Part shown: positions 2,074 to 9,904 of the stretch, piece by piece
How the letters are laid out: each line of letters starts with the position of its first letter
How positions within the stretch are numbered: the first letter of the stretch is position 1
Source of the DNA: Blastococcus tunisiensis
GTDB taxonomy: Bacteria > Actinomycetota > Actinomycetes > Mycobacteriales > Geodermatophilaceae
Length of the DNA stretch: 64,000 bases
Direction of reading: 5' to 3'
Assembly (NCBI RefSeq): GCF_900112815.1
Contig: NZ_FOND01000014.1
Location: 62,001 to 126,000 of the forward strand
The notes under the pieces: generated by a model
What the model saw: only the letters and a program-made list of their open reading frames with translations
Told to the model about the DNA's origin: nothing
Database searches by the model: none
Translations under genes and position numbers: made by a program

Positions 2074-4920
2074 ATGTCCAGCCCCGCTGAGCGGTACGCG
2101 GCTGCCCGGCGGCGGACCGCGCACCCCACGCTGTCGGACTTCACCGTCGGGCTGGGCTTCTCGCTTGACCCCTTCCAGGTGGAGGCATGCGAGGCGCTGG
2201 ACGAGGGCTCCGGCGTTCTGGTGTGCGCGCCCACCGGCGCCGGCAAGACCGTCGTGGGCGAGTTCGCCATCCACAAGGCGCTGTCGGAGGGCCGCAAGGC
2301 GTTCTACACGACGCCGATCAAGGCGCTGTCGAACCAGAAGTACGCCGACCTCGTCGAGCGGTACGGCGCGGCGAAGGTCGGCCTGCTCACCGGCGACAAC
2401 GCGGTCAACGGCGGCGCGCCGGTGGTGGTGATGACCACCGAGGTGCTGCGCAACATGCTCTACGCGGAGTCGCCGGCGATCGACGGCCTCGGCTACGTGG
2501 TGATGGACGAGGTGCACTACCTCGCCGACCGGTTCCGCGGCGCGGTGTGGGAGGAGGTGATCATCCACCTCCCGCAGGAGGTCACCCTCGTGTCGCTGTC
2601 GGCAACGGTGAGCAACGCCGAGGAGTTCGGCGAGTGGCTGGTCACCGTGCGGGGTGACACGAAGGTCGTCGTCAGCGAGGTGCGGCCGGTCCCGCTCTGG
2701 CAGCACATGCTCGTGGGCAACCGGGTCTTCGACCTGTTCGCGCTGCGCCCGGCGGCGCACGCGGGGGAGCAGGGGGAGAACCCCCGCGAGCTGTCCACCC
2801 GCGAGCGCGGCTCCTCGGTGGTCGACCCCGAGCTGGTCCGGTACGTGCGCGAGCACGAGCGCCGGATCGATTCCTGGCACGGCGGCGGGAACGGGGGCTC
2901 GCGCCGCGACTCCTGGCACAGACCGCGCTACCGGGCCCCCGCCCGGTCCGACGTCGTGGCCCGGCTCGACGCCGCCGGGCTGCTGCCGGCGATCACCTTC
3001 GTCTTCAGCCGCAACGGCTGCGACGCCGCGGTGCACCAGTGCCTGCTCTCCGGCCTGCGGCTCACCGACGAGGCCGAGCGGGCGCAGATCGCTGAGATCA
3101 TCGACCGGCGCACCGGGTCGCTGCCCGAGGAGGACCTGCACGTCCTGGGCTTCTGGGAGTGGCGCGAAGGGCTGCTGGCCGGGCTGGCGGCGCACCACGC
3201 GGGCCTGGTGCCGGCATTCAAGGAGACCGTCGAGGAGTGCTTCGTGCGCGGCCTGGTCAAGGCCGTCTTCGCCACCGAGACCCTCGCCCTGGGCATCAAC
3301 ATGCCCGCCCGCAGCGTCGTCCTCGAGCGGCTGACGAAGTGGAACGGCGAGGCCCACGTCGACGTGACGCCGGGGGAGTACACCCAGCTCACCGGCCGGG
3401 CCGGACGGCGCGGCATCGACGTCGAGGGCCACGCGGTGGTGATCTGGGCGCCCGGCATGGACCCGTCGGTGGTCGCCGGCCTGGCCAGCACCCGCACCTT
3501 CCCGCTGAGGTCGTCGTTCCGGCCCAGCTACAACATGGCCGTCAACCTGGTCAGCTCCTTCGGGCGCGCCCGGGCCCGGGAGCTGCTGGCCTCCTCCTTC
3601 GCCCAGTTCCAGGCCGACCGCTCCGTGGTCGGCCTGGCCCGCGCCGCCGCCCGCCACGAGCAGGACGCCGAGGCGTTGGCCGCGCAGATGCGCTCCGACC
3701 GGGGGGACGTCGGCGGGTACGCCCAGCTCCGCCGCGAGATCGCCGACCGGGAGAAGGAGCTGTCCCGGGACTCGCAGGCCAAGCGGCGGATGGAGGCCGC
3801 CGAGGCGCTGGCCGCGCTGCGCCCGGGCGACGTCATCCGGGTGCCGTCGGGACGGCGACAGGGGCTGGCCGTGGTCGTCGACGCCGGGATCACCGACCTC
3901 GCCGACCCGCGGCCGCTCGTGGTCACCGAGGACAAGTGGGCCGGCCGGCTGGGCTCGGTGGACTTCCCGACGCCGGTCAGCGCGCTGGCCCGGGTGAAGG
4001 TGCCGAAGAACTTCAACCACCGCAGCCCGCACGCCCGCCGCGACCTCGCCTCGACGCTCCGCAACGCCCGCGTCGAGCACGAGCTGGGCGCGCGCCGGGT
4101 CCGGAACCGGTCGGCGGCCGCGGACGACCCGGTGCTCGCCGACCTCCGCCAGGCGATGCGCAACCACCCCGTGCACCAGCTGCCCGACCGCGAGGAGCGG
4201 GTGCGGGTCGCCGAGCGGTGGCTGCGCGCGGTCCGGGAGGCCGACGCCCTGCAGCGGAAGATGACCGAGCGCACCGGCTCGCTCACCCGCCAGTTCGACG
4301 CCACCTGCGACGTCCTCGAGGAGCTCGGCTACCTGGTGCCCGAGGCGGTGCCGCTGGTGCCGGCCGACACGCTGGTGGTCGGGGCGGCCGACGACCTGCC
4401 ACTGGTCACCGACGACGGCCGTCGGCTGGCCCGGATCTGGTCGGAGGCCGACCTGCTCGTCGCGGAGTGCCTGCGCGCCGGGGCGTGGCGCGGCCTGAAC
4501 CCGGCCGAGCTCGCCGCCGCGGCGTCGACCGCCGTCTTCGAGGCCCGCCGGGACAACCCGGCGCTGCCCGCCGTCCCGGCCGGGAAGGTGGCCGCGGCGA
4601 TCGGGGAGATGCGGCGGATCCGGGCACGGCTGCACGACGTCGAGGCCGACCACGGCGTCCGCGTCACCCGCGATCTGGACCTGGGCTTCGCCTGGGCGGC
4701 CTACCGGTGGGCCGACGGGCAGAGCCTCGACCGCGTCCTGGCCGGCGCCGAGCAGGCCGGCACCGAGCTGTCCGGTGGCGACTTCGTGCGCTGGGCGCGT
4801 CAGCTCATCGATCTGCTGGACCAGCTGGCCAAGGTCGCCGACGAGCCGGTGGCCGGTGTCGCGCGGGCGGCCGTGGGCCGGATCCGCCGCGGTGTGGTGG
4901 CCGTCGCCGTCGGCGGCTGA
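2074..4920 (+). CDS. helY: DExH RNA helicase, Ski2/Mtr4 type (HelY)
   Basis: The 948-residue helicase has all superfamily 2 motifs: Walker A APTGAGKT (about 52-59), TTPIKALSNQ (motif Ia), DEVH (about 145-148), SATVSN (motif III), the ATETLALGINMP and GRAGRRGID motifs, and a C-terminal DSHCT-type helical domain. Ski2/Mtr4 enzymes unwind RNA in decay pathways; the bacterial partner is not settled. Its place between tatC and a DUF4333 protein repeats the M. tuberculosis helY neighbourhood (Rv2092c). ATG 2074 is supported by the -10 box 6 nt upstream. Confidence 0.95.
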   Translation: MSSPAERYAAARRRTAHPTLSDFTVGLGFSLDPFQVEACEALDEGSGVLVCAPTGAGKTVVGEFAIHKALSEGRKAFYTTPIKALSNQKYADLVERYGAAKVGLLTGDNAVNGGAPVVVMTTEVLRNMLYAESPAIDGLGYVVMDEVHYLADRFRGAVWEEVIIHLPQEVTLVSLSATVSNAEEFGEWLVTVRGDTKVVVSEVRPVPLWQHMLVGNRVFDLFALRPAAHAGEQGENPRELSTRERGSSVVDPELVRYVREHERRIDSWHGGGNGGSRRDSWHRPRYRAPARSDVVARLDAAGLLPAITFVFSRNGCDAAVHQCLLSGLRLTDEAERAQIAEIIDRRTGSLPEEDLHVLGFWEWREGLLAGLAAHHAGLVPAFKETVEECFVRGLVKAVFATETLALGINMPARSVVLERLTKWNGEAHVDVTPGEYTQLTGRAGRRGIDVEGHAVVIWAPGMDPSVVAGLASTRTFPLRSSFRPSYNMAVNLVSSFGRARARELLASSFAQFQADRSVVGLARAAARHEQDAEALAAQMRSDRGDVGGYAQLRREIADREKELSRDSQAKRRMEAAEALAALRPGDVIRVPSGRRQGLAVVVDAGITDLADPRPLVVTEDKWAGRLGSVDFPTPVSALARVKVPKNFNHRSPHARRDLASTLRNARVEHELGARRVRNRSAAADDPVLADLRQAMRNHPVHQLPDREERVRVAERWLRAVREADALQRKMTERTGSLTRQFDATCDVLEELGYLVPEAVPLVPADTLVVGAADDLPLVTDDGRRLARIWSEADLLVAECLRAGAWRGLNPAELAAAASTAVFEARRDNPALPAVPAGKVAAAIGEMRRIRARLHDVEADHGVRVTRDLDLGFAWAAYRWADGQSLDRVLAGAEQAGTELSGGDFVRWARQLIDLLDQLAKVADEPVAGVARAAVGRIRRGVVAVAVGG

Positions 4921-8755: not shown

Positions 8756-9904
8756 ATGGACGTCATGCGATGGGATCGGCAACGGCTCGACCCGGACGAG
8801 TCCACGACGCTGCCGGGCATGCCGAGCATCCGCGGCCTGCTGCGCAGCGTCCAGGTGCCGGAGTTCCCCGGGCTGACGTTCCACGAGGTCCGGGCGAAGT
8901 CCGCCCTGAACCACGTGCCCGGCGAATCCGCGATGCCATTTCCATATACCATCAATCCATATCGGGGATGTTCTCATTCCTGCGTCTATTGCTTTGCTCG
9001 CAGAACGCATGAATGGCTGGAACTGGATTCGGGTCGGGACTTCGACACGCAGGTCGTGGTCAAGACGAACCTCGTCGACGTCCTCCGCCGGGAACTCGCG
9101 CGGCCGTCCTGGGCGCACGAGCACGTCGCCCTCGGCACCAACACCGACCCCTACCAGCGGGCGGAGGGCCGCTACCGGCTGATGCCCGGCGTCATCGGGG
9201 CCCTGGCCGAGTCGGGCACGCCGTTCTCCATCCTGACGAAAGGCACCCTGCTCCGCCGGGACATCCCGCTGCTGCGCGAGGCCGCGCAGACGGTGCCGGT
9301 GGGCCTCGGCGTCTCCCTGGCGATCTGGGACGACGCCCTGCACGCCGGCCTGGAGCCGGGAGTGCCGACGCCGCGGGCGCGCCTGGACCTGGTGCGCGCC
9401 CTCGCCGACGCCGGGTTGCCGTGCGGCGTGTTCCTCGCTCCGGTGCTGCCGGGCCTGACGGACGGCATCGCGGAACTGGACGCCGCGCTCGGTGCGATCG
9501 CCGCGGCGGGGGCCACCGGGGTCACCGTGATCCCGCTGCACCTGCGCCCCGGGGCACGGGAGTGGTTCATGGCCTGGCTGGCCGGCGCGCATCCGGCGCT
9601 GGTACCGCGATACCAGCAGCTCTACGCACGGCGGGCGTACGTCCCCGCCGAGTACCGCACCTGGCTGGCCCGCCGGGTGGCACCCCTGCTGACGAGGCAC
9701 GGTCTCGACCGGCAGAGCGGCGGGACGGCACGGAAGGCGGTCGACCCGGCCGTCGCGACCGGCGTCCCCGGCGACTCCGAGGTCGGCTTCCCGGAGGGCA
9801 GCCTGCCGAGCACCGGGCTGCCGGGGGTCGGCTCGCCGCGGGACCTGATCTCGGGCGCACCGGATTCGGCTCCCGGTGGCAGCGAGCAGCTGACCCTCCT
9901 CTGA
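8756..9904 (+). CDS. Rv2578c family radical SAM protein (intein-free allele)
   Basis: The 382-residue radical SAM protein has cluster cysteines Cys72, Cys76 and Cys79 (CSHSCVYC) and the family signature PYTINPYRGCSHSC, followed by the NTDPYQ and ILTKGTLLRRD segments of the spore-photoproduct-lyase-like radical SAM group. The reaction is not known. Members of this family in other actinobacteria are often interrupted by an intein; this copy is not. Codons 57-95 are conspicuously AT-rich (47% GC at 8941-9030) while the rest of the gene is very GC-rich. The C-terminal 60 residues look disordered. ATG 8756 is used. Confidence 0.88.
   Translation: MDVMRWDRQRLDPDESTTLPGMPSIRGLLRSVQVPEFPGLTFHEVRAKSALNHVPGESAMPFPYTINPYRGCSHSCVYCFARRTHEWLELDSGRDFDTQVVVKTNLVDVLRRELARPSWAHEHVALGTNTDPYQRAEGRYRLMPGVIGALAESGTPFSILTKGTLLRRDIPLLREAAQTVPVGLGVSLAIWDDALHAGLEPGVPTPRARLDLVRALADAGLPCGVFLAPVLPGLTDGIAELDAALGAIAAAGATGVTVIPLHLRPGAREWFMAWLAGAHPALVPRYQQLYARRAYVPAEYRTWLARRVAPLLTRHGLDRQSGGTARKAVDPAVATGVPGDSEVGFPEGSLPSTGLPGVGSPRDLISGAPDSAPGGSEQLTLL

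Follow-up and report, generated by a model that had tools for sequence, protein, structure and literature searches.

Why does a gene in a very GC-rich genome contain one short stretch that is rich in AT-ending codons? The window considered here, the whole 64,000-nucleotide stretch of Blastococcus tunisiensis DNA that was analysed, has a mean GC content of 0.747 (standard deviation of 105-bp segments, 0.046), and its 105-bp segments with a GC content of 0.51 or less are confined to a single region (8909-9049, minimum 0.467). This region lies in an open reading frame of 382 amino acids on the plus strand (8756..9904), an Rv2578c-family radical SAM gene without an intein. Its product scores 523 bits against NF038135 (cut-off 430), contains a Radical_SAM domain (Pfam: PF04055) and has the Cx3Cx2C iron-sulphur cluster motif, whose codons can be read directly from the sequence (Cys72, Cys76, Cys79; 8969..8992, plus strand). 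Against NF038136, the intein-containing form, it reaches 551 bits, below the cut-off of 700, with the best-scoring stretch starting at residue 79. The gene thus belongs with the former model and not with the latter.

An earlier, sequence-only reading of this DNA had put the GC content at 47% over 8941-9030, with far higher flanks, and our measurements agree (0.467, against 0.708 in the gene upstream of the patch and 0.754 downstream). It had drawn the patch over codons 57-95; the start holds, while fitting a step to the amino-acid-corrected use of AT-ending codons moves the end to codon 93. The patch so defined (8924..9034, plus strand; GC 0.486) runs from codon -22 to codon +14 when numbered from the intein site described below. 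The codons that had been called rare elsewhere are indeed so when counted within the gene: TTT, TAT, CCA, TCT, AAT and AGA together have 11 occurrences in codons 57-95 and none in the remaining 343, and GAA has three and two, respectively. Compared with the nearest relative (L111) at codons for shared residues, the patch has 21 synonymous differences in 29 codons, and the flanks have 4 in 33 and 9 in 29 (Fisher p = 4.6e-6). The patch is a real feature of the gene, and we regard it as confirmed.

What occupies this position in related genomes? A family search finds the Rv2578c gene in 104 of 112 Geodermatophilaceae genomes, and among 97 aligned alleles 48 have an intein and 49 do not. The intein sits between the equivalents of codon 78 (Tyr) and codon 79 (Cys), that is, at 8989..8990 (plus strand) of the window, where the insertion point is empty. 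The junction directly precedes Cys79, which would be the +1 residue of the C-extein, and it falls inside the patch, so the link to an intein of this gene that had been suspected from the letters is sound and the site is not remote from the patch. Nor is the patch common to all relatives by descent, since AT-rich runs occur in only 14 of 92 alleles. The relatives' inteins mostly start with C-x-x-G-D-T and end with G-V-[IV]-S-H-N; they measure 414 to 1058 bp (mostly 1035 bp), and their GC content is 61-75%. On a quick gene tree with the patch region left out, presence and absence change at least 33 times. The full-length intein of L113 contains a LAGLIDADG_3 domain (PF14528; 30 bits, cut-off 22.5), and an endonuclease domain is present in all three full-length inteins tested, Rv2578c and dnaB together; a scan of the mini-intein of L111 gave no LAGLIDADG endonuclease domain. 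The splicing-domain profile TIGR01445 scored 24.8 and 34.1 bits in two inteins tested (cut-off 24.5), both of which stayed below the cut-off of PF14890. When the L113 intein is compared with the window's own genome, the sole match is weak and lies within that genome's dnaB intein.

We scanned all 35-codon windows of the Rv2578c alleles blindly for AT-rich runs, defined by an AT3 of at least 0.28. L130/L131 (one gene over two contigs) and L148 were dropped everywhere, and L155, L159 and L161 (odd intein length or frame) and L179 and L180 (distant or cut) in most counts, which leaves 92 alleles. The patch thresholds (0.28 and 0.30) and the g1 and g3 subsets were picked after the data had been seen. 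All 16 runs in the 14 patched alleles are centred within 20 codons of the intein site, a zone that makes up 14.7% of the windows scanned in the exteins. Nine of the patched alleles lack the intein and five have it. Whether or not the intein is present, GC3 (corrected for amino acid) falls around the site and recovers by about 18 codons; at codons -6 to -1 the dip is -0.31 in empty alleles (n = 49) and -0.22 in occupied ones (n = 45). Empty alleles of g1, the genus of the window, dip most strongly (-0.26 to -0.42 between codons -18 and +5). Empty alleles are AT-richer by AT3 when stratified by genus (p = 0.010) and within g1 (p = 0.007). The difference is not significant in g2, g3, g8 or g9 taken alone, nor in the 42 closest pairs of occupied and empty alleles (p = 0.66).

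We examined the same gene in other groups. The comparison set of 78 other actinobacteria includes one Geodermatophilus (L001), as does the outside set used for comparing residues. There is no comparable dip in 18 f19/g36 genomes (which we take to be Streptomyces), none of which has the intein; in 10 f20/g51 genomes, all of which have a 456-bp Rv2578c intein (L186-L189, L191, L192, L194-L196 and L198, fetched out of 12 listed with the gene); or in 65 loci from Kribbellaceae, Microbacteriaceae, Micrococcaceae, Mycobacteriaceae and Nocardiaceae. The lowest near-site bin in all these groups is -0.10. Four intein-less alleles (L200-L203) of f20, a family that also has intein-bearing members, show a dip of -0.14 over codons -6 to -1. 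About 12 intein-bearing Rv2578c genes of other families show at most a mild lowering (GC3 0.67-1.00 at codons -6 to -1). In most families that lack the intein, and in one group whose examined genomes all have a short intein, AT-rich patches are missing or weak. As a separate observation, the intein-less Rv2578c gene of Garicola koreensis (L059, match 3001-3963), outside the Geodermatophilaceae, has a similar patch, with a GC3 of 0.37 near the site and 0.78 in the rest.

Could the patch simply serve the protein or its message, by way of translation pausing at the cluster motif, an RNA structure or an internal regulatory signal? The patch does overlap the motif, and CAT, which the gene seldom uses for His outside this region, encodes the His at codon -5 in 76 of 94 family alleles. 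We nevertheless regard such intein-unrelated selection as highly improbable. The genome has 12 other radical SAM domains that we could find, none of them patched, so that an effect of the motif as such is rejected: GC3 over the Cx3Cx2C stretch is 0.25-0.50 in the window gene and 0.89-1.00 in those 12. Control genes contradict this explanation, most other families with the same motif lack a comparable dip, and similar patches occur at two sites of an unrelated gene, dnaB.

In dnaB, site A interrupts Walker A (GVGK|STLGLD) and site B lies at DLRESG|SIEQDAD, where a LAGLIDADG intein of 426 amino acids inserts; the two inteins are about 500 bp apart. The window's genome has a Walker A intein of 415 amino acids with endonuclease domains and an empty, unpatched site B (AT3 0.08; G000:C23 about 208174-209418, L303:205-1449). 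Our sample of 60 empty and 21 occupied site B alleles was drawn from a subset of the 102 matching genomes. Twelve of the 60 empty alleles are patched and none of the 21 occupied ones (Fisher p = 0.03; rank test p = 0.011), and within genus g3 the counts are 6 of 13 and 0 of 10 (p = 0.019). The strongly patched alleles have an AT3 of 0.32-0.57, against 0.03-0.22 in their own flanks, and the other 48 empty alleles reach at most 0.22. With 20 pooled empty alleles only a weak dip was seen; the bimodality is visible with 60 alleles and by genus. The 12 patched alleles span five genera, and a tree built from the flanks of 81 alleles requires at least 11 changes between patched and unpatched. Several dnaB loci represent one genome twice (L295/L262, L296/L258, L304/L263, L297/L269). 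At site A, with duplicates removed, an AT3 of at least 0.28 occurs in 7 of 41 genomes with an empty site and in none of 16 with an occupied one, a difference that is not significant (p = 0.17). A blind scan of the 81 loci placed AT-rich extein runs within 17 codons of an empty site A in 7 genomes and of an empty site B in 13, with L309 counted in both; exceptions are L422, which is diffuse, secondary runs at -44 (L411) and +19 (L407), and the three occupied loci taken up below. Other families provide further observations of AT-rich patches at an empty site B: L446 and L448 (f20 g51) and L454 (f42), with an AT3 of 0.64-0.75 at the site in L446 and 0-0.08 upstream.

Taken together, at least two unrelated genes have synonymous AT-rich stretches of about 100-200 bp, centred on a total of three intein insertion points and commoner where the site is empty. 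They track homing sites, mostly empty ones, rather than a protein motif. Emptiness goes with a higher AT3 in Rv2578c when stratified by genus (p = 0.010) and with more patches at dnaB site B (p = 0.03); the difference is not significant in the 42 Rv2578c pairs or in dnaB site A alone. The comparison of empty with occupied sites bears on the idea that, over about 60 bp, heterology between alleles with and without the intein reduces recombination and with it GC-biased conversion, whereupon silent sites would drift to the AT-biased balance of mutation. Such a local loss of a GC-maintaining force would suit the Rv2578c dip in both occupied and empty alleles, a shift in composition without extra turnover between C and G in g1-g3, and the lack of a dip where all 10 genomes hold the intein (f20/g51) or none of 18 does (f19/g36). 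It predicts, however, an equal effect when the site is occupied, and no occupied dnaB allele is patched by the criterion applied (0 of 21 at B, 0 of 16 at A); we judge it rather improbable.

In dnaB, a patch at one empty site goes with an intein at the other site. Patches at site B are found in 10 of 22 alleles in which site A is occupied and in 2 of 38 others (p = 3e-4), where the status of site A was inferred from the length of the open reading frame, which agrees with the separate site A analysis in the 20 long loci. Conversely, site A is patched in 4 of 9 alleles with A empty and B occupied, against 3 of 32 that are empty at both (p = 0.031); this strict count does not score L258 as patched, whose AT3 of 0.278 lies just under the cut-off of 0.28, and p becomes 0.007 if it is so scored. 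Such an association between a patch and a rival intein fits protection of the resident intein.

Where did the patch sequences come from? The Rv2578c patches encode the same residues as an unpatched family member at 29-33 of 33 positions; patches of g8 and g1 have the residues of their own group, the g8 type and the g1/g2 type, respectively. The rewriting is silent and leaves a family-typical protein. In a DNA search of 396 genomes of the phylum, the best-scoring match to the window patch outside the family was 74% over 105 bases, and for the window allele the closest patch match stands at 0.81. A foreign, phage or plasmid donor was also sought in viral, plasmid and phage collections and rejected: these gave distant gene relatives only, the best plasmid relative having 59.5% protein identity. 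Since the patch encodes family residues and the searches gave no donor, the Rv2578c recoding was most likely made in situ.

The sequence-only reading had offered a co-conversion tract, or a scar left by gain and loss of an intein allele of different base composition. Our results do not support an AT-rich allele of this kind as its source: the inteins have 61-75% GC, the patch GC averages are alike in occupied (0.647) and empty (0.641) alleles, and the residues are family-typical. The version in which alleles share a donor's flank fares no better. Divergence in the patch does not follow divergence of the intein (partial correlations of -0.15 to -0.005 with gene distance allowed for, in 10-codon windows on each side), donor DNA was not found in the sets searched, and a flank haplotype travelling with the intein is rejected on the same distance comparison. 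A close relation of the scar, in which a break or the loss of an intein is repaired from an AT-richer homologue and leaves a short foreign tract, finds more room in dnaB. There the patches are nearly bimodal, and codon sharing between patched alleles of different genera (0.635) slightly exceeds the maximum of a composition-matched null (0.619). The codons chosen in low-GC genomes are largely similar, and the conserved residues mean that import would leave the protein unchanged. As the DnaB protein is nearly invariant and codon sharing is in slight excess, import keeps some probability for dnaB. For Rv2578c it was already weakened by the own-family residues, and codon sharing among patched alleles is within the null (0.526). 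The best match to a whole dnaB patch in 394 genomes of the class is 78%, from the same genus, which like the 74% of the window patch and the missing relation between patch and intein distance tells against import. Overall we consider it unlikely.

Another suggestion of the earlier reading, that an ancestral target of the homing endonuclease has been retained, is itself unlikely given that the patched state of dnaB site B changes at least 11 times and that individual patches differ in detail between alleles; the slight excess of codon sharing in dnaB qualifies this judgement. In 11-12 of the 12 patched site B alleles the codons for Leu-5, Glu-3, Glu+2, Gln+3, Asp+4 and Asp+6 are rewritten, while all 12 retain a GC-ending codon for Asp-13, Asp-6, Ile+1 and Arg-4. 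The low-GC genomes of the class make largely similar choices at this site, so position preference alone is no evidence of contact with the endonuclease. Recoding towards maximal divergence finds no support in the same two observations.

The kinds of change bear on a further explanation, in which the repair of homing cuts at empty sites makes errors biased towards AT and selection purges the non-synonymous ones, leaving a synonymous AT hump on the cut. The observed AT excess does peak at the cut, is lost within about 18 codons and is commoner at empty sites. Differences between GC and AT are raised in most patch comparisons, and C-G differences at four-fold sites are not raised in g1, g2 or g3; they are raised in the g8 pairs with and without the intein (0.37 vs 0.21). 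Several observations point the other way. Some GC-AT rise is seen in the f19/g36 control too (0.088 vs 0.044). Synonymous turnover at the site across the family is not above this control, which shows the same synonymous excess, so general hypermutation at the site is rejected. Arg codons AGG and AGA enter the spectrum (12 of 32 Arg codons in patched alleles, against 8 of 225 in the others). Among four-fold codons that end in A or T, A predominates left of the site and T right of it, a pattern confounded by residue type; the strand pattern expected of single-strand deamination is missing, and strand-asymmetric deamination is rejected. Moreover, many cuts per lineage would be needed to alter more than half of the silent sites. 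Mutagenic repair seems to us unlikely.

We favour a different reading, to which we give close to an even chance: the patch would be an empty landing site of a homing intein that was silently recoded after escape from homing. This reading rests on the centring on the site, the enrichment at empty over occupied sites, the exposure of dnaB to a rival intein, the control groups, the in situ Rv2578c sequence and the endonuclease domains. According to PMC3024317, a single silent change is tolerated by homing endonucleases, whose targets measure 14-40 bp, and homing should depend on how long the flanking homology is. If so, escape would need many silent changes in both target and flanks. In lineages that meet the intein repeatedly, the LAGLIDADG endonuclease and homology-dependent repair would convert donor-like alleles, so that an allele would stay empty only if its target and the adjoining homology had gathered many silent changes. 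In a genome with a GC3 near 95%, silent changes go to A or T at two-fold codons, and mostly so at four-fold codons, and old empty alleles would become AT-rich. In dnaB, a recoded empty site would also shield the resident intein from overwriting by its rival. It is tempting to hypothesize, more tentatively and somewhat short of an even chance, that some empty intein sites in high-GC actinobacteria are a "synonymous armour", a homing-blocking silent recoding that has arisen repeatedly at several genes and, in genes with two inteins, is linked to the rival that it protects.

A number of observations count against escape. Most empty sites are unpatched (38 of 47 in Rv2578c, 48 of 60 in dnaB B, 34 of 41 in dnaB A), and five occupied Rv2578c alleles are patched. 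Occupied dnaB B alleles L271, L288 and L297 have AT-rich windows in or across the 3' end of the intein, and one run in L288 is centred 36 codons into the C-extein. The patches extend 50-75 bp on each side, wider than a target of 14-40 bp. To these we add results given above: the non-significant comparisons in g2, g3, g8 and g9, in the 42 pairs and at dnaB site A alone, the mild lowering in intein-bearing genes of other families, the four dnaB B codons that stay GC-ending with similar choices in low-GC genomes, and the lack of a C-G rise in g1-g3. The weakness of the two gyrA cases described below counts in the same direction.

Yeast VDE and I-AniI are homing-endonuclease systems in which target resistance or coevolution with the target is known, and recoded, drive-resistant alleles occur in engineered gene drives; the patches would be a natural analogue of the latter. 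Goodrich-Blair and Shub are said to have described competition between intron endonucleases in 1996. Target-site resistance around the haloarchaeal mcm and polB inteins is a close likeness, in that there, too, empty alleles differ from the target and some of them resist invasion. In PMC10643990, however, mcm alleles resist invasion via an amino-acid change, a single one that blocks splicing rather than recognition, whereas here there are about 20 silent changes over about 110 bp, repeated at several loci. That paper also describes interference between neighbouring inteins, likewise two in one helicase gene; the difference is that, in dnaB, recoding of an empty site is more frequent when its partner site is occupied, a pattern that we did not meet in that description. 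The tracts that co-conversion leaves next to homing introns and inteins share the centring on the insertion point, the extent of tens to hundreds of base pairs and the rough symmetry. Unlike such tracts, the patches are commoner without the element and do not travel with the intein, and the Rv2578c sequence most likely arose in situ. Our searches of the open-access literature brought up no earlier account of empty intein sites marked by AT-rich synonymous patches. The codon footprint bears on the question of how alleles without an intein survive next to homing elements that spread efficiently: a recoded patch may record an escape from a selfish DNA element. If this is true, empty homing sites and past exposure to selfish elements could be read from codon usage alone, with no need of the element itself, and a footprint that recurs in tens of species, at three sites of two genes, would allow one to count from genomes how often inteins are escaped, met or in competition with one another.

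We also looked at gyrA in 30 loci of 97 genomes and rejected it as a further strong patch site: only L329 and L341 are AT-rich at the intein site, both weakly. Two other gyrA loci of g9, L319 and L330, have AT-rich runs elsewhere, about 131 codons upstream of the intein site. Within 124 kb of contig (the 64-kb window and 60 kb upstream of it), the only other stretch containing 105-bp segments with a GC content of 51% or less lies outside the window (L183:13541-13731, G000:C32:53541-53731). A tie between this stretch and the neighbouring endonuclease VII gene is rejected (16 loci with the gene, 7 without, p = 0.81; loci from 30 of 100 genomes with a match, 7 of the 30 unscored). The stretch covers the 3' end of pup, directly upstream of an Endonuclease_7 (HNH) gene, and the last 30 pup codons of relatives are often AT-rich.
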